Virus record (IMG/VR): IMGVR_UViG_3300019458_000020
Location: 124,001-188,000 of that record
Length of the DNA stretch: 64,000 bases
Strand: one strand, 5' to 3'
DNA from: a virus
The position numbers and the translations under genes are program-made. Positions 3,903-41,007 of this stretch are shown piece after piece (position 1 is the stretch's first letter; each line of letters begins with the position of its first letter). The notes beneath the pieces were generated by a model. It saw nothing but the letters and a program-made list of their open reading frames with translations. It did no database searches and was not told where the DNA came from.

Positions 3903-4892
3903 TTATATATTGTCGAAAGTGAAAACGGTGCTATCAAACGTTATAATGGTACTATCAAACGTAGGATTTTGAGTTATTATAATACTAGCAGTATTACTAT
4001 ATGAAGATGTGCCGAATGTATTGAAAGCAGCAACTCTATACCAATAGGTACTGCCTGTTACTACAGACGTGTCGTGAGAACCGGTAATGTTTGTACCAAC
4101 AATAATATGTGGTATATATGTTGAACCAGAATCCACAGACCGTTCTATTACGAAACCATCTTCATTAATTGATGTATCTACCCAAGTTATTAATACATCA
4201 CTAATACTAACTTGAAATAGACTTAAACTTATTGGGGCAGAAGGAACAGAAAAATCAAAATAATTTGAACAGTTATTAATGCTTCCTGTAGCAAATTCGT
4301 TTGTAAACTCTCCTATTTCCTGAACCCTAGAAAAAATATTTGTTCCCGCAAAAAGATTATTGTGACCATCATCAACAATATCGTAATTGTTATCTATTGA
4401 GTTGTCAGTAATATGAACCGAATTTTCAAGAATCTTTTCTCCCAACACACGAGGAACCACATCAAAAATTCTCATTTTATCTGTGATGAATTTTATTGTC
4501 TTAGAATTAGGAAAATCGATATTTTCCATTCCCCATAATTGGGCGGGATTTTTATAATTATTATAGAATAGAGTCTTGATTTGAGAATAGACGACTCTTT
4601 TAAATGTCCCATCTTGATTTACTGGTTCATCATCAGGATAGAATATTCCGGTTCGTTTCTGACCCTCTCGAAATTTTAATTTATCATCCTCTTGTTGTTC
4701 AAGAGCAATCAAACATTCGGTATTCAGTTCTGGTAATCCACTTCCATTACCATAATCTACATACTCCATTAAAATGCCTTCATCGGCTTCGGTCAAAACC
4801 AAGTCATCATTAATAACATTCGACAACTGCCAATCTTTGGTAGTTGTGAACGGTACAGTATTTATCTGATACTTTTTAAGTGACTTAATCAT
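3903..4892 (-). CDS. Tail/adhesin protein with fibronectin III domain, paralogue of 1403-2797
   Basis: 329 residues. The N-terminal ~225 residues parallel those of the 464-residue protein at 1403-2797; a fibronectin-like domain with WVDTSINEDGF and SVDSGSTY follows. It then ends with a short duplicated tail (FDSTIITFDSTVFTFDN) in place of the leucine-rich repeats. The start is preceded by TATTTATT with 7 bases between the box and ATG. The pair looks like a duplication in which the C-terminal binding module diverged. Confidence 0.75.
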   Translation of the reverse strand: MIKSLKKYQINTVPFTTTKDWQLSNVINDDLVLTEADEGILMEYVDYGNGSGLPELNTECLIALEQQEDDKLKFREGQKRTGIFYPDDEPVNQDGTFKRVVYSQIKTLFYNNYKNPAQLWGMENIDFPNSKTIKFITDKMRIFDVVPRVLGEKILENSVHITDNSIDNNYDIVDDGHNNLFAGTNIFSRVQEIGEFTNEFATGSINNCSNYFDFSVPSAPISLSLFQVSISDVLITWVDTSINEDGFVIERSVDSGSTYIPHIIVGTNITGSHDTSVVTGSTYWYRVAAFNTFGTSSYSNTASIIITQNPTFDSTIITFDSTVFTFDNI

Positions 4893-37124: not shown

Positions 37125-38159
37125 TCATTGTTTATAATCTACGTTTAAAATTTTGACCGATAGTTGTCTTCCAAGAACAGAAGAATAACGTGGTTTACAC
37201 GGTCGAAGAACGATTCCCTCTCCGTTATTTTTTCCATACTTAAAATTATTAGCAATTTCCTGTAGTCGTGCTACATTCCAAGTTTCATCTAAAATAAAAC
37301 AGTCTCCAATTTGGTCAACTGTTGGAATATCCAATATTGCACAAGTCAACACAATTTGTCCCCAATCGAGCCATGCGCCATTGTCCAAATCACGAATATT
37401 GAATACACGGAATGATTTTTCCGATATTTCCATTTTGTTTCCCTGAATGGTTGGTCCAACGGCCTCGGCCTGAATTGCAATATTTCGATTGAACTTGGTC
37501 AGTTTCTCAACCAAATTTAACTTATTCACGATTGACCAAAACCCCGTTCCTTCTTTTTGTTCTAGTTTTCGGCTACAAACACGAACCTTTCCATCTTGAT
37601 AAATGATAGTACAAGAACTACCATCGGCCTTGCCTGTGATATAACACAAATCGCCACGAAGTTCATTCAATACTTCATCACCATAATTTAATAGATTGTG
37701 TTCATCCGTCATTGGTATAAGATTTGTTGGAAAATTACCTACTGCTTCAGAACTAATTGGTTCTGGCTTTTCGTATTTGATGATACCAAGAATTTCAGTA
37801 ACGTCGTCGCCCTCCTTTAGATTAGCGATGTTTTTTTCAACTTGAAATACCTCATTACCAATTTCTTTTGAATTTTTAAGAAGAATATCACACGGACATA
37901 CCAATCCCTGAGATGGTGCCCCTTTGAATCTACAATTCCAGATCCGATACTTTTGACGTTCCAAAAAAGAAAAAAATGGATTGGTAGAAGGAACAATGGT
38001 GTCAATAGTAATAAAAACAACCAAATCACCTTCTTTGAATTCGCCTTTCTTGATAACGACCGGCCATTCTTTGATTTTGGCTACCTCTAATCTTTCAACC
38101 TCTTTATTAGGATGTGGTTGAATCAAGTGGATTCTTTGAATTGTTGCTAAATTTTTCAT
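37125..38159 (-). CDS. RNA ligase, DraRnl (Rnl5)-like
   Basis: 344 residues from MKNLAT at 38159; the stop of the upstream 45-residue gene overlaps this ATG (TAATG), which fixes the start. An OB-like N-domain (about 1-60, GEFKEGDLVVFI) precedes the nucleotidyltransferase core: GKADGSS (Lys177 is the adenylated residue), IAIQAEAVGP, GEGIVLRP and VKILN. DraRnl-type ligases seal 3'-OH/5'-phosphate nicks in RNA. Beside a tRNA array the likely role is repair of tRNA cut by host anticodon nucleases (inferred). Confidence 0.85.
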   Translation of the reverse strand: MKNLATIQRIHLIQPHPNKEVERLEVAKIKEWPVVIKKGEFKEGDLVVFITIDTIVPSTNPFFSFLERQKYRIWNCRFKGAPSQGLVCPCDILLKNSKEIGNEVFQVEKNIANLKEGDDVTEILGIIKYEKPEPISSEAVGNFPTNLIPMTDEHNLLNYGDEVLNELRGDLCYITGKADGSSCTIIYQDGKVRVCSRKLEQKEGTGFWSIVNKLNLVEKLTKFNRNIAIQAEAVGPTIQGNKMEISEKSFRVFNIRDLDNGAWLDWGQIVLTCAILDIPTVDQIGDCFILDETWNVARLQEIANNFKYGKNNGEGIVLRPCKPRYSSVLGRQLSVKILNVDYKQ

Positions 38160-38296
38160 TAGATGTATAAAATTTCGTCGGTTTTTACTAAAAAATATTG
38201 ATAACAAGACCCACCATCTCGTCTCACATACGACATGCCGTTACAAAAGTGACAAACGAGTTCTAAAGAATGAGTTTTCCATTTTATTTGTTTCAT
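38159..38296 (-). CDS. Small zinc-motif protein, first gene of the RNA ligase transcript
   Basis: 45 residues (MKQIKWKTHSLELVCHFCNG...) with CHFC. The ATG lies 7 bases after a -10 box (TATATT), so the transcript is leaderless. Its stop overlaps the ligase start. Unknown. Confidence 0.55.
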   Translation of the reverse strand: MKQIKWKTHSLELVCHFCNGMSYVRRDGGSCYQYFLVKTDEILYI

Positions 38297-38303
38297 GGGG
38301 ATT

Positions 38304-38331
38304 AATATACGAGATTTTTAGAAAAAGTCAA
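38304..38331 (-). promoter_or_regulatory. Sigma70-type promoter for the RNA ligase operon
   Basis: TTGACT (38331-38326), 16-bp spacer, TATATT (38309-38304). ATG of the first gene at 38296. Confidence 0.72.
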
Positions 38332-38351
38332 GAAGTTATGAGGAAGAAAAT

Positions 38352-38425
38352 TGGCTGGGGATGATGGAGTTGAACCACCGTCTTTCGATTCAGAGCCGAT
38401 TATAATACCGTTATACTAATCCCCA
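38352..38425 (-). tRNA. tRNA-Gln (CTG)
   Basis: Acceptor TGGGGAT/ATCCCCA, G73, CCA, loop CTCTGAA, and T-loop TTCAACT. Typical Gln start TGGGG. Confidence 0.88.
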
Positions 38426-38430
38426 ATAAA

Positions 38431-38586
38431 TTATGGCCAGTTGGTTACGTTAAACCAAGCCCGGCAACCTTGTCCATCGAATGTAGAATATCCTTCGATC
38501 CATCTTTGTTCTACTGGTTTCGGTTCCGCCACCTTAACCGTCTTTTTCTTGGACCTAATAACCTTGGATTTCTTTTTCGATTTCAT
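38431..38586 (-). CDS. Small basic protein, 51 residues
   Basis: 51 residues: Lys-rich N-terminus (MKSKKKSKVIRSKKKTVK), then WIEGYSTFDGQGCRAWFNV. Its start lies within the end of the next gene upstream. Small but with a coherent second half. Unknown. Confidence 0.45.
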   Translation of the reverse strand: MKSKKKSKVIRSKKKTVKVAEPKPVEQRWIEGYSTFDGQGCRAWFNVTNWP

Positions 38587-38725
38587 AAAATTGGTGTTCC
38601 GTTTGGGAATTCAACCCATAGTTTCTTAATCCATTCAATTTCTTTGGATTCAAACACTCACGTAACTTCATGAAGGCGACAAACTCTTCAATCCACCACC
38701 CAAATACACGCTCTATGAACACCAT
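38555..38725 (-). CDS. Hypothetical protein, about 56 residues
   Basis: The frame is open from 38815 (TTG). The ATG at 38725 begins a coherent helical protein, MVFIERVFGWWIEEF..., ending EKEIQGY. It overlaps the basic protein by 32 bases. No clear RBS. Weak support. Confidence 0.35.
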   Translation of the reverse strand: MVFIERVFGWWIEEFVAFMKLRECLNPKKLNGLRNYGLNSQTEHQFYEIEKEIQGY

Positions 38726-38815
38726 CAGATTGTCATCCCTACTATGTTCGACAGCAGTGCATCCAGCAAGACCATATTGGTTTGGTGGTTTTTGTTTGTG
38801 TTTCCTTTGAAACAA

Positions 38816-39100
38816 CCTAACACTAAAATCGTGAGAGTAGTTACCTACTCCCGAGCACCCCCTATGGTGCGCCGTTCCTGAGAGGCGTCGGAGGTTTATT
38901 AAAAAATTACAAGATGCCAGATTTACTCTTATCTGAGTGTAGAGTTTACAACTAACAACGTTGGATGACTTTTATTGTAACATCACCTACAACCTACCAT
39001 CGGTAGGATTTATGTGCCTCTCGGCTTTTCTTTTATAATAGTTTGCTGCTGTAACAGCATCTTATTTCATAATAATAATGTCATACATTACCATTACAAA
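38816..39100 (-). other. Non-coding stretch with several hairpins
   Basis: 285 bases without a convincing gene or tRNA. Hairpins seen: CCTACC-GAT-GGTAGG (about 38990-39007), GAGTAG-GTAA-CTACTC (about 38833-38850), GCTGTTACAGC (about 39047-39058) and GCC-GAGA-GGC. The string GGAGTAGGTAA also occurs at about 36340. Likely structured RNA in the tRNA transcript. Confidence 0.4.
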
Positions 39101-39189
39101 TGGTTGCGGAGCGTTGGAGTTACACCAACCATAGAGACTTTCATCTCCCACCTTATGAGGGTGGCCAGCATCTTCCGGCTTGTGCCCGC
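39101..39189 (-). tRNA. tRNA with CAT anticodon and long variable arm
   Basis: A perfect anticodon arm CCACC-CTCATAA-GGTGG and T-arm GTTGG-TGTAACT-CCAAC. The variable region has a GAGA/TCTC stem, so the body is class II (Leu/Ser-like) while the anticodon is CAT. Acceptor pairing is 5 of 7 (GCGGGCA with GCTCCGC), with an extra A before CCA. Identity uncertain; it may be non-functional. Confidence 0.55.
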
Positions 39190-39208
39190 GAAATCAAAGA
39201 ACAAAAAT

Positions 39209-39284
39209 TGGTAGCGGATAAAAGAATCGCACTTTTCTAAAAATGCTTATGAGACATTCCAGTTCACTAGAACTGTAATCCGCA
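39209..39284 (-). tRNA. tRNA-Met/Ile2 (CAT)
   Basis: Acceptor TGCGGAT/ATCCGCT with a T1-T72 mismatch, A73, CCA, anticodon arm AATGT-CTCATAA-GCATT, and T-loop TGCGATT (G55). The unpaired first position recalls initiators, but the three G-C pairs of initiator anticodon stems are absent. Could be Met or lysidine-dependent Ile. Confidence 0.78.
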
Positions 39285-39302
39285 GTAAATTCATCTATAA
39301 AT

Positions 39303-39331
39303 ATAATACACTCGAACAAATCGATTGTCAA
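39303..39331 (-). promoter_or_regulatory. Sigma70-type promoter for the 39284-38352 RNAs
   Basis: TTGACA (39331-39326), 17-bp spacer, TATTAT (39308-39303), just upstream of the CAT tRNA. Confidence 0.75.
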
Positions 39332-39780
39332 ATCAAATTCCAGAGAGTTTTTAAAGATTCATCTGGTGTTTGACGGGTAGTGTTGATAGGTATAAAATTC
39401 TCCAAAGGTTCTTCGAACTCTTTGCAGTGGAAGGATTCACGGCCACGAACTTCGTTAGTATAAACATAAATTTCTTTTATACCAAATTGAGATTTCTTGA
39501 ATTTTTCTCTAACTTCTCTATAAGGATTTACTGTTGAAATGATGACACAAATACCTTGGTTATTAATATGTCTTACTAAATTTTGAAGTATTTCAGTTTG
39601 TTGAATTCTATATTCTTTGGTAAAATTTTCCTTATTGTAAGAATTACCAAATATTGTTCTAAGGTCGTCTCCATCGAGATGAAGAATCGTATCAGACCCT
39701 AACGCTTCGAATGCGTTTTTTAATTTTTTAGCTAATGTGGTCTTTCCACAACCAGGCTGACCTATGAACCAATATATCAT
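39328..39780 (-). CDS. APS kinase-like P-loop kinase
   Basis: 150 residues. Walker A is GQPGCGKTT at 7-15; LHLDGDDLR follows and matches the adenylylsulfate kinase signature; CVIISTVNPYREVREKF matches the family's third block. The C-terminal substrate region differs (KEFEEPLENFIP). True APS kinases are ~200 residues, so this is short. It may phosphorylate a nucleotide or RNA end instead. Its stop overlaps the -35 of the tRNA promoter downstream. Confidence 0.72.
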   Translation of the reverse strand: MIYWFIGQPGCGKTTLAKKLKNAFEALGSDTILHLDGDDLRTIFGNSYNKENFTKEYRIQQTEILQNLVRHINNQGICVIISTVNPYREVREKFKKSQFGIKEIYVYTNEVRGRESFHCKEFEEPLENFIPINTTRQTPDESLKTLWNLI

Positions 39781-39804
39781 AAAATAATTGTTGATGTTTC
39801 TTTT

Positions 39805-40368
39805 TTATTTTTTTACAAAATCGATTTTATTCCAATCATCCATTCTTGCACTTAATCCATCACAAAGATGCAAAATCCAAGCAACTTTTGTGTTCGGAGA
39901 AACCGGACTTCCCCATTCTCTATGTCCGTGGTGAGCTAAAATTGCATGTAAAACCGAGTCGTGATATTTTGATTTTACTTCGGGGAAAGATTCTACAGCG
40001 TGACTCCACATTAAAGCCGAACGAGAGATATGATGAATCATTCGTTTATGAACTGTAGGGCCCCAAACGTTAAAATCTTTCTTTTCATAATCATGAATTT
40101 TTCCAACATCATGATACAAAGCAGCAAGAAACAATTCCACGTCATCTACATCTTTTAGCTTTAAAGTTTCTTTGGTAGAAAAACAAAGACGAATAACTTC
40201 TAATGTGTGTTCGGATAATCCATTATCACGATAATGATGATGGTCTGATTTTGCACTTCCCGACCATGTTTGGGGTCGATGGTCATGTAATACATGATGT
40301 ATTAAACTAATAACATCACTTGAAAAGTGAAATGTTTTTGCTAAGTCGTATATTTCATCTACAAACAT
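39805..40368 (-). CDS. HD-domain phosphohydrolase, YhaM-like pattern
   Basis: 187 residues from the ATG at 40368; the in-frame ATG at 40392 would lie inside tRNA-Ala, so it is rejected. Motifs: His54 (LSEHTLEVIR), HDVGK at 86-90, HAILAHHGHREWGSPVSP, and LHLCDGLSARMD. The HHGHxEWGSP block is typical of YhaM-family 3'-5' exoribonucleases and related HD proteins. Within a tRNA module an RNA-processing role is attractive but unproven. Confidence 0.75.
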   Translation of the reverse strand: MFVDEIYDLAKTFHFSSDVISLIHHVLHDHRPQTWSGSAKSDHHHYRDNGLSEHTLEVIRLCFSTKETLKLKDVDDVELFLAALYHDVGKIHDYEKKDFNVWGPTVHKRMIHHISRSALMWSHAVESFPEVKSKYHDSVLHAILAHHGHREWGSPVSPNTKVAWILHLCDGLSARMDDWNKIDFVKK

Positions 40369-40380
40369 AAAATCAAATCT

Positions 40381-40454
40381 TGGTGGAGCCAAAGAGAATT
40401 GAACCCTTATCTATTCATTGCGAATGAATCATCCTCCCGTTGAACGATGACCCC
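40381..40454 (-). tRNA. tRNA-Ala (CGC)
   Basis: Acceptor GGGGTCA/TGGCTCC, A73, CCA, anticodon arm ATTCA-TTCGCAA-TGAAT, and T-loop TTCAATT. Its 5' end lies 3 bases from the 3' end of the RNase P RNA. Confidence 0.9.
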
Positions 40455-40457
40455 ACA

Positions 40458-40748
40458 TTGATAAACTAAAAGTATAGCCGCGGTTCTGTTATTTCAATCA
40501 AACATTTATCTCAGATTTTCATCTGGTTTCTTACTAATAGAAACTGCTCCAACCTTGTCTTGATACCGAATAACTCACATTCTCAGACTTTTTAGGATTG
40601 CTGCGGATTTGTGGTAATAACGCAATTCAACTCTTTATAGACTCGGCCCGGACTCCGAATTGCTCCCAAACAACGAGTTAAGCAGCCACGAACTTCCTCT
40701 AATCACAGGTTTTACTGTGACCAGCGTTTGATTCTTTTAATCAATCAA
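40458..40748 (-). ncRNA. rnpB: RNase P RNA (rnpB-like), phage-encoded
   Basis: About 291 nt. P1: 40748-40734 pairs with 40472-40458 (14 of 15, two G-U). P2: AATCAAACG (40733-40725) pairs with TGTTTGATT (40504-40496), 9 of 9. P3: TCACAG/CTGTGA. CR I: GAGGAAGTTCGTGGC (40699-40685; E. coli GAGGAAAGTCCGGGC). CR V: ACAGAACCGCGGCTATAC (40489-40472; E. coli ACAGAACCCGGCTTAT). P4 forms between them with the universal bulged U. A GAAA-capped P18-like hairpin (CAGAT-GAAA-ATCTG) followed by AGATAAATG completes the 3' domain. Order P1-P2-P3-P4...P2'-P4'-P1' is exact. RNase P makes tRNA 5' ends; the host protein subunit is presumably used. Confidence 0.88.
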
Positions 40749-40762
40749 AATTACAAAGAACT

Positions 40763-40927
40763 TTATCTGTTCATCCATTTACAATAAACGGCTATAGGCC
40801 AAAATAGTAAATGAATAAAAAAACTACAAATCATAACATACCACGTCTTATCAAAACGATAAGTTTCATACATGGCAAATATACACCATAACATACCAAA
40901 AGTCAAATAGATTAATAATAAGTTCAT
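40763..40927 (-). CDS. Small membrane protein, 54 residues
   Basis: 54 residues with two hydrophobic helices (LLLIYLTFGMLWCIFAMY and VMICSFFIHLLFWPIAVY) joined by a charged turn. It sits between tRNA-Thr and the RNase P RNA. Holin-like size, but function unknown. Confidence 0.5.
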   Translation of the reverse strand: MNLLLIYLTFGMLWCIFAMYETYRFDKTWYVMICSFFIHLLFWPIAVYCKWMNR

Positions 40928-40932
40928 AAAAT

Positions 40933-41007
40933 TGGAGCCTCAGGAGGGAGTCGAACCCTCTTTTCTTCATTACCAATGAAGTGTAATAGCCGTTATACTA
41001 CAGAGGC
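40933..41007 (-). tRNA. tRNA-Thr (GGT)
   Basis: Acceptor GCCTCTG/CTGAGGC (one mismatch), T73, CCA, anticodon arm CTTCA-TTGGTAA-TGAAG, and T-loop TTCGACT. All Thr tRNAs here have T73. Confidence 0.88.

Follow-up and report, generated by a model that had tools for sequence, protein, structure and literature searches.

A phage-type RNase P RNA gene within a viral tRNA array

Background

RNase P RNA, the ribozyme that trims the 5' ends of tRNAs, is among the most ancient ribozymes and, to our knowledge, has so far been regarded as a gene of cells and organelles. A stretch of viral DNA lying between two tRNA genes raises the question of whether a phage carries this catalytic RNA itself and, if so, of what type it is and what it would do. 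The DNA analysed here (the window) is a stretch of 64,000 nt from a 250,813-base IMG/VR virus record (G000). A first-pass annotation, made from the sequence alone, had read positions 40458-40748 as a phage-encoded RNase P RNA of the bacterial type.

The locus and its setting

The record contains a terminase and 46 tRNAs and no ribosomal protein S3, which bears out the earlier assignment of the DNA to a phage. No ORF of at least 100 aa overlaps 40458-40748, thus the stretch is non-coding. It sits on the minus strand between tRNA-Thr (40933-41007) and tRNA-Ala (40381-40454). The features of the locus are as follows.

40458-40748, minus strand: RNase P RNA gene of the phage type, 291 nt from P1 5' to P1 3', with a match to RF00010
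40381-40454, minus strand: tRNA-Ala(CGC) with encoded CCA, 3 nt downstream of the RNase P RNA; RNase P cut predicted before 40454
36230-61812, minus strand: surrounding tRNA array, 32 ARAGORN tRNAs and 34 Rfam matches, all on the minus strand
40878-40906, minus strand: weak candidate promoter upstream of the RNase P RNA, TTGACT-17-TATATT, 10/12 consensus

Each of the 32 ARAGORN tRNAs in the window has its terminal CCA encoded. The last base of the P1 3' strand is 40458 and tRNA-Ala(CGC) starts at 40454, so that three bases separate the two, the spacing given in the first-pass annotation. The number of TTGACT-TATATT-like promoter sites was near chance (8 against 5.1 expected), and a test for Bacteroidetes-type promoters was also at chance (4 against 2.6).

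Match to the covariance model of bacterial RNase P RNA

A cmscan search covering 40370-40930 showed that RF00010 (bacterial RNase P class A) matches 40743-40459 on the minus strand over model positions 1-367, with a score of 44.1 bits and an E-value of 1.8e-12 that refers to the 561 bases searched. The first-pass annotation had named a search with the bacterial RNase P model as the check on its proposal; the result was this significant full-length match and not the empty search that would have spoken against it. The curated gathering cut-off of RF00010 is 100 bits, and since the score falls short of it, standard annotation overlooks the RNase P RNA of the window: a gathering-threshold Rfam search of the locus listed the tRNAs alone. 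Free-energy folding of the locus was not unusual (z -0.88). The identity of the RNA is proven by the covariance model and the related sequences described below, to which folding energy adds no help.

Helices and conserved elements

P1 with 14 of 15 pairs, P2 with 9 of 9, P3 and a P4 with a bulged U had been described in the order of bacterial RNase P RNA, together with near-matches to CR I and CR V and a GAAA-capped P18-like hairpin. All of these were found in place, among the following elements.

40734-40748, minus strand: P1 5' strand, 14 of 15 pairs with 40458-40472
40725-40733, minus strand: P2 5' strand, 9 of 9 pairs with 40496-40504
40700-40723, minus strand: P3 hairpin, 40723-40715 with 40708-40700, 9 pairs including G.U, loop UAAAAC; covariation partial
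40685-40699, minus strand: CR I, GAGGAAGUUCGUGGC, with the P4 5' strand and its bulged U; P4 covariation
40682-40685, minus strand: P5 5' strand (CUGC), pairing with 40601-40604
40605-40681, minus strand: reduced specificity-domain region, 77 nt between the P5 strands, without a GUAAGAG motif
40601-40604, minus strand: P5 3' strand (GCAG), pairing with 40682-40685; covariation in alignment A2
40588-40600, minus strand: J5/15, CAAUCCUAAAAAG, region of E. coli A248; conserved in alignment A2
40557-40588, minus strand: P15 arm with outer GUCU/AGAC pairs; weak support across relatives (59% of cells)
40552-40554, minus strand: GGU, predicted partner of the tRNA 3' RCCA; columns G193, G194 and T195 invariant in alignment A2
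40512-40544, minus strand: P18-like region of two hairpins, the second with a GAAA loop at 40517-40520
40503-40510, minus strand: CR IV, GAUAAAUG; RF00010 match and alignment A2
40496-40504, minus strand: P2 3' strand, pairing with 40725-40733; partner-swap control and covariation
40474-40489, minus strand: CR V, ACAGAACCGCGGCUAU, containing the P4 3' strand (40476-40483)
40458-40472, minus strand: P1 3' strand, predicted mature 3' end just downstream

P4 consists of 40694-40692 and 40690-40686 paired with 40483-40476 (8 of 8 pairs) around a bulged U40691, with which U40692 is interchangeable in this role. CR I runs from 40699 to 40685 and CR V from 40489 to 40474, and the GAAA-capped hairpin, CAGAU-GAAA-AUCUG, occupies 40525-40512 of the minus strand.

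Three features that define the RNase P RNA class (Rfam clan CL00002) are present, namely a model match, P4 with a bulged U, and the P2/P4 pseudoknot with P1 and P3. Of the features of RF00010 as curated, the window RNA has the GGU loop for the tRNA RCCA (40554-40552) and lacks a 100-bit score, the bacterial P4 sequence and a complete P7-P14 specificity domain with GUAAGAG. The description of the RNA as bacterial in type is therefore right for the core and its order and does not extend to canonical type A, given the altered P4, the reduced specificity domain and the sub-cut-off score.

Re-pairing of P4 and covariation

The bacterial P4 sequence, AAGUCCGGG/CCCGGCUU, is replaced in the window by AGUUCGUGG/CCGCGGCU. 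We compared phage-type P4 without gaps with that of 16 canonical RNAs, 14 of them bacterial or bacterial-looking and two (L148 and L149) from viral contigs. AAGUCCG is kept in 16/16 of these references. In E. coli numbering, the phage type has G-C for A67-U359, U.G for G68-C358 and G-C for C71-G356, while pair 72-355 is free (G-C, C-G, A-U or U.G) and U69 is still bulged. In the phage signature, then, other pairs take the place of three that never vary among the bacteria examined, and the bulged U is kept. Because these changes hit positions invariant in those bacteria, activity of the phage RNA is not to be assumed.

Among distinct sequences, 96.9% of P4 cells were paired, compared with 76.8% after shuffling, and double-change cells numbered 26 against 6.7 in shuffled data, with six of the eight pairs changed on both sides. 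The covariation of P4 (0.510 against 0.155 shuffled) was reached by none of 500 shuffles. A wider fold of 34 pairs in P2, P3, P4, P5 and P15, with P2/P4 as a pseudoknot, was tested on alignment A2, which holds the nine closest relatives of the window aligned by sequence only. This fold was 84.2% paired, compared with 28-44% when slid, and its covariation was 0.337 against a maximum of 0.111. P5 was paired in 100% of cells with double changes in 3 of its 4 pairs; P15 and inner P3 were weakly supported. For P1, the matched count in 32 family members was 345, against 255.7 (sd 8.9, maximum 275) with swapped partners; for P2 in the family the count was 224 against 194.4 (sd 3.7, maximum 206 in 1000 swaps). 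Covariation backs P1, P2, P4, P5 and the P2/P4 pseudoknot at levels well beyond those of the controls. Chance pairing as the source of the helices is ruled out by the RF00010 match, the partner-swap controls on P1 and P2 and the covariation. With the RF00010 match and an independent phage family that shares the fold through compensatory changes, the first-pass identification holds, and it is near certain that the element is an RNase P RNA.

Related loci on viral contigs

An IMG/VR scan for CR I spaced from CR V, supplemented by further motif scans and followed by inspection, yielded 36 related loci (34 non-redundant), nearly all on uncultured viral contigs with GC contents from 33 to 62%. They share the signature GAGGAAGUUCGNGGC ... 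ACAGAACCNCGGCUAU, and most have a recognisable J5/15 (typically CAAACAG), GGGUUGG and CR IV. Matches on L089 and L139, tRNA-rich contigs with a single motif, were rejected as chance motifs in coding sequence.

Four distinct RNase P RNAs on viral contigs exceed the Rfam cut-off, at 191-255 bits: L144 and L057, which have the phage-type P4, and L148/L152 and L149, which have the canonical one. The remaining members mostly score 19-68 bits and are window-like. The L148 and L152 RNAs both score 247.4 bits and lie on IMG/VR contigs of 372 kb and 497 kb; a search of these two contigs for Terminase_6N gave no match, and they are putative phage contigs by their listing in IMG/VR. The L149 RNA (4462-4786, 209 bits) lies 6 nt from the next tRNA within an array of tRNAs on a viral contig of 100 kb, and may be a separate capture. 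A further RNase P RNA on a phage contig, L125:1055-1314, has its best Rfam match with the archaeal model RF00373, at 39.2 bits and below cut-off. In a tree built with P4 masked, the phage-type rows require two changes and L144 falls near the Bacteroidetes rows (93/87), while a single clade of phage-type rows was not rejected (AU p 0.31); one capture and several are therefore both compatible with the tree.

At L140:7460-8175, a GIY-YIG endonuclease ORF is immediately followed by a 3' fragment of a phage-type RNase P RNA. The 5' half of the RNA was looked for upstream and not found, and its gene looks broken by endonuclease insertion. Such a fragment, the score under the Rfam cut-off and the shortened specificity domain would suit a relic, a captured bacterial rnpB that is now decaying and without function. 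Against decay, compensatory changes preserve the helices in many divergent phages, CR I, CR IV and CR V are nearly invariant while the remainder of the RNA diverges, and the position beside a tRNA is kept. We consider a relic very improbable.

Occurrence in viral and cellular genomes

Terminase_6N was found in 15 of 29 carrier records, that of the window included, and ribosomal protein S3 in none of the 29. All 12 carrier records tested for tRNAs have 25-56 of them; in a comparison set of 25 other viral contigs the maximum was 21, and most had none or one.

The CR IV-CR V signature gave 15 matches across 84,980 species genomes of bacteria and archaea; 14 of these, mostly within protein-coding genes, were judged to be due to chance. 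The one real copy, L168 (JANWKP010000389.1), belongs to a Nitrososphaerales MAG and lies on a contig of 12.7 kb; its phage-type RNase P RNA groups close to the phage sequences L132 and L138 in the tree, and the contig is probably misbinned. The exact CR IV-CR V pattern recovers 21 IMG/VR contigs and hence catches a part of the phage loci only, so rare cellular copies may exist. The signature is absent from 50,697 GenBank phage records, in which a query of 14 concatenated phage-type cores had no match; against the same records the window locus gave tRNA-like and chance matches only.

Canonical-type matches in GenBank phage records (Salmonella, a record labelled Acinetobacter phage, fecal contigs and a Microcystis 'phage') were set aside as they look bacterial. 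In the last of these, L176 (MW495066.1, Microcystis phage MaAM05), an unannotated RNase P RNA-like match lies beside engB, fabI and mtgA, and the record looks like a bacterial contig. Such records lend some weight to the idea that the gene of the window is itself bacterial and entered the record by contamination or misassembly. That idea is hardly credible here: apart from the single 12.7 kb contig, the 3' part of the signature has no real match in the species genomes, the carriers have a terminase and many tRNAs and no S3, the gene lies inside the tRNA array, and the L015 arrangement is repeated in five separate contigs.

Neighbouring tRNAs and partner genes

A tRNA begins no more than about 31 nt past CR V in the window and nine relatives (L015, L047, L049, L079, L090, L110, L120, L126 and L133); in the L126 record, G008, the tRNA directly abuts the end of the RNase P model. 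Nearly all tRNAs near the RNase P RNA genes are on the same strand. The position of the window gene fits a shared processing with tRNA-Ala, and the similar arrangement of about nine relatives points the same way.

The CCA-adding enzyme family PF01743 was found in 10 of 12 carriers (9 over cut-off), including the phage of the window, and in none of the 25 other viral contigs, which are shorter than the carriers. In the phage of the window, outside the window, a 708-aa protein in which a GNAT acetyltransferase domain is fused to a CCA tRNA nucleotidyltransferase is encoded at G000:C1:70523-72649 (L194:24-2150, plus strand). A tmRNA scoring 107.5 bits, which exceeds the Rfam cut-off, is encoded in the same genome at G000:C1:197242-197649 (L195:9242-9649, minus strand), also outside the window, and the relatives G001 and G011 each have one over cut-off. 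tmRNA is another substrate of RNase P (PMC4919922). No RnpA (PF00825) over cut-off was found in 20 records searched (G000 and 19 others), nor a peptidyl-tRNA hydrolase in 12 records. Three protein genes lie within about 4 kb of the RNase P RNA.

37125-38207, minus strand: RNA ligase (PF09414, E 1.1e-18; TIGR02306, E 2.8e-37, below its cut-off)
39328-39780, minus strand: P-loop kinase, polynucleotide-kinase-like (PF01583, E 1.2e-13; phrog_505 polynucleotide kinase, E 5e-9)
39805-40392, minus strand: HD-domain protein resembling the YhaM 3'-5' exoribonuclease (PF01966, E 3.8e-13; NF010007, E 1.2e-15, below its cut-off)

The region 37125-40392 of the window is possibly a cluster for RNA repair and trimming.

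Specificity domain and proposed function

The window RNA has 77 nt between the P5 strands and six relatives (L056, L110, L090, L143, L136 and L047) have 44-61, compared with 164 in E. coli; L144 keeps the full specificity domain. By its sequence, the window copy is without about half of the domain and retains the catalytic core and the GGU, and the part that binds the T loop looks missing. Loss of that part usually costs rate. The C-domain RNA of E. coli alone cleaves with reduced efficiency (PMC5839562). From the retained GGU, the CCA encoded by 32/32 window tRNAs and the reduced specificity domain, we infer recognition of the acceptor end without that of the T loop.

The comparisons establish, at the level of sequence, an RNase P core and fold and membership in a phage lineage with a re-paired P4, and they suggest that the RNA is catalytically active. 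Our main reading, with a probability of roughly 0.8, is that the RNA is a phage-encoded catalytic subunit which borrows the host RnpA, matures the phage tRNAs and has its 3' end freed at tRNA-Ala. The RNA would be co-transcribed with the flanking tRNAs, fold into its catalytic domain and join RnpA, presumably that of the host, as the phage has no recognisable one. Together they would cut the 5' leaders of the 46 phage tRNAs, and probably that of the tmRNA, recognising substrates mainly by the acceptor stem and the CCA tail. By cutting at tRNA-Ala, three bases beyond P1, they would liberate the 3' end of the ribozyme as well. In this way tRNA maturation could be sustained under a high load of phage tRNAs after host transcription has shut down. 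Against this reading count the sub-cut-off score, the apparently missing T-loop-binding part, the changes at P4 positions fixed in the bacteria compared and the insignificant folding energy.

A different role would be that of a decoy or regulator, a mimic that, by binding host RnpA or host tRNA precursors, slows down or diverts the host RNase P without cutting phage tRNAs. The absence of an RnpA over cut-off from the phage, the reduced specificity domain and the altered catalytic helix P4 would accord with this. However, the RNA retains the catalytic bases near P4 along with the bulged U, J5/15, GGU and CR IV, and in phages that diverged deeply the changes in P4 compensate one another; both are what selection for catalysis would lead one to expect. 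Blocking RNase P would, moreover, harm tRNA-rich phages, which need it, and carriers tend to have a CCA-adding enzyme, a partner in maturation. A decoy is improbable on this evidence. We regard it as unlikely that this tailed-phage lineage, with its recoded P4 and in part a catalytic domain only, functions independently of host rnpB, and perhaps of host RnpA as well; the RNA, alone or with a phage protein, would then be the phages' own enzyme for tRNA 5'-end maturation.

Relation to known systems and significance

The gene for the yeast mitochondrial RNase P RNA, RPM1, lies between tRNA genes. Like the phage RNA in our main reading, RPM1 is transcribed beside tRNAs and freed by tRNA processing. 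The mitochondrial RNA (reviewed in PMC4919922) is, however, organellar and AT-rich, and its protein partner RPM2 is unrelated. Bacterial type A RNase P RNA (rnpB, RF00010) shares with the window RNA the P1-P5 order, the P2/P4 pseudoknot, the bulged U in P4, J5/15, the GGU loop, the P18-like hairpin and CR I, IV and V; the window RNA differs from it in being phage-encoded within a tRNA array, in three replaced P4 pairs, in the 77 nt set against 164 in E. coli, and in scoring 44 bits where 100 are demanded. The minimal RNase P RNA of Pyrobaculum (type T/P; PMC4919922, PMC5839562) consists of a catalytic domain with little or no specificity domain and may be comparable to the window RNA in this respect. 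It is archaeal and cellular, works with archaeal proteins and lacks P18, whereas the phage RNA gives a match with the type A model of bacteria, and its phage relatives include some (L144) with the full specificity domain. The translation gene sets of huge phages (tRNAs, synthetases and CCA-adding enzyme; PMC7162821, PMC7824862) belong to the same class of phage and follow the same tRNA-function logic; the main texts of these huge and jumbo phage surveys report CCA-adding enzymes and RNA ligation and do not mention RNase P.

We found no report of a phage RNase P RNA in the open-access (PMC) literature, and such an RNA is likely new to the literature. The first-pass annotation had called a phage with its own catalytic subunit unusual; with 36 related loci the case is not a one-off. 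What is likely new is a virus-specific type of RNase P RNA, homologous in its core and falling short of the curated type A cut-off and the specificity-domain features. Most of these RNAs are hidden by the curated Rfam cut-offs. With their swapped P4 pairs and cut-down specificity domains, they are natural experiments on parts of the ribozyme supposed to be fixed. A virus-specific lineage, if real, would place the catalytic subunit of a near-universal enzyme among phage genes and would explain how tRNA-rich phages obtain mature tRNAs after host shut-off.
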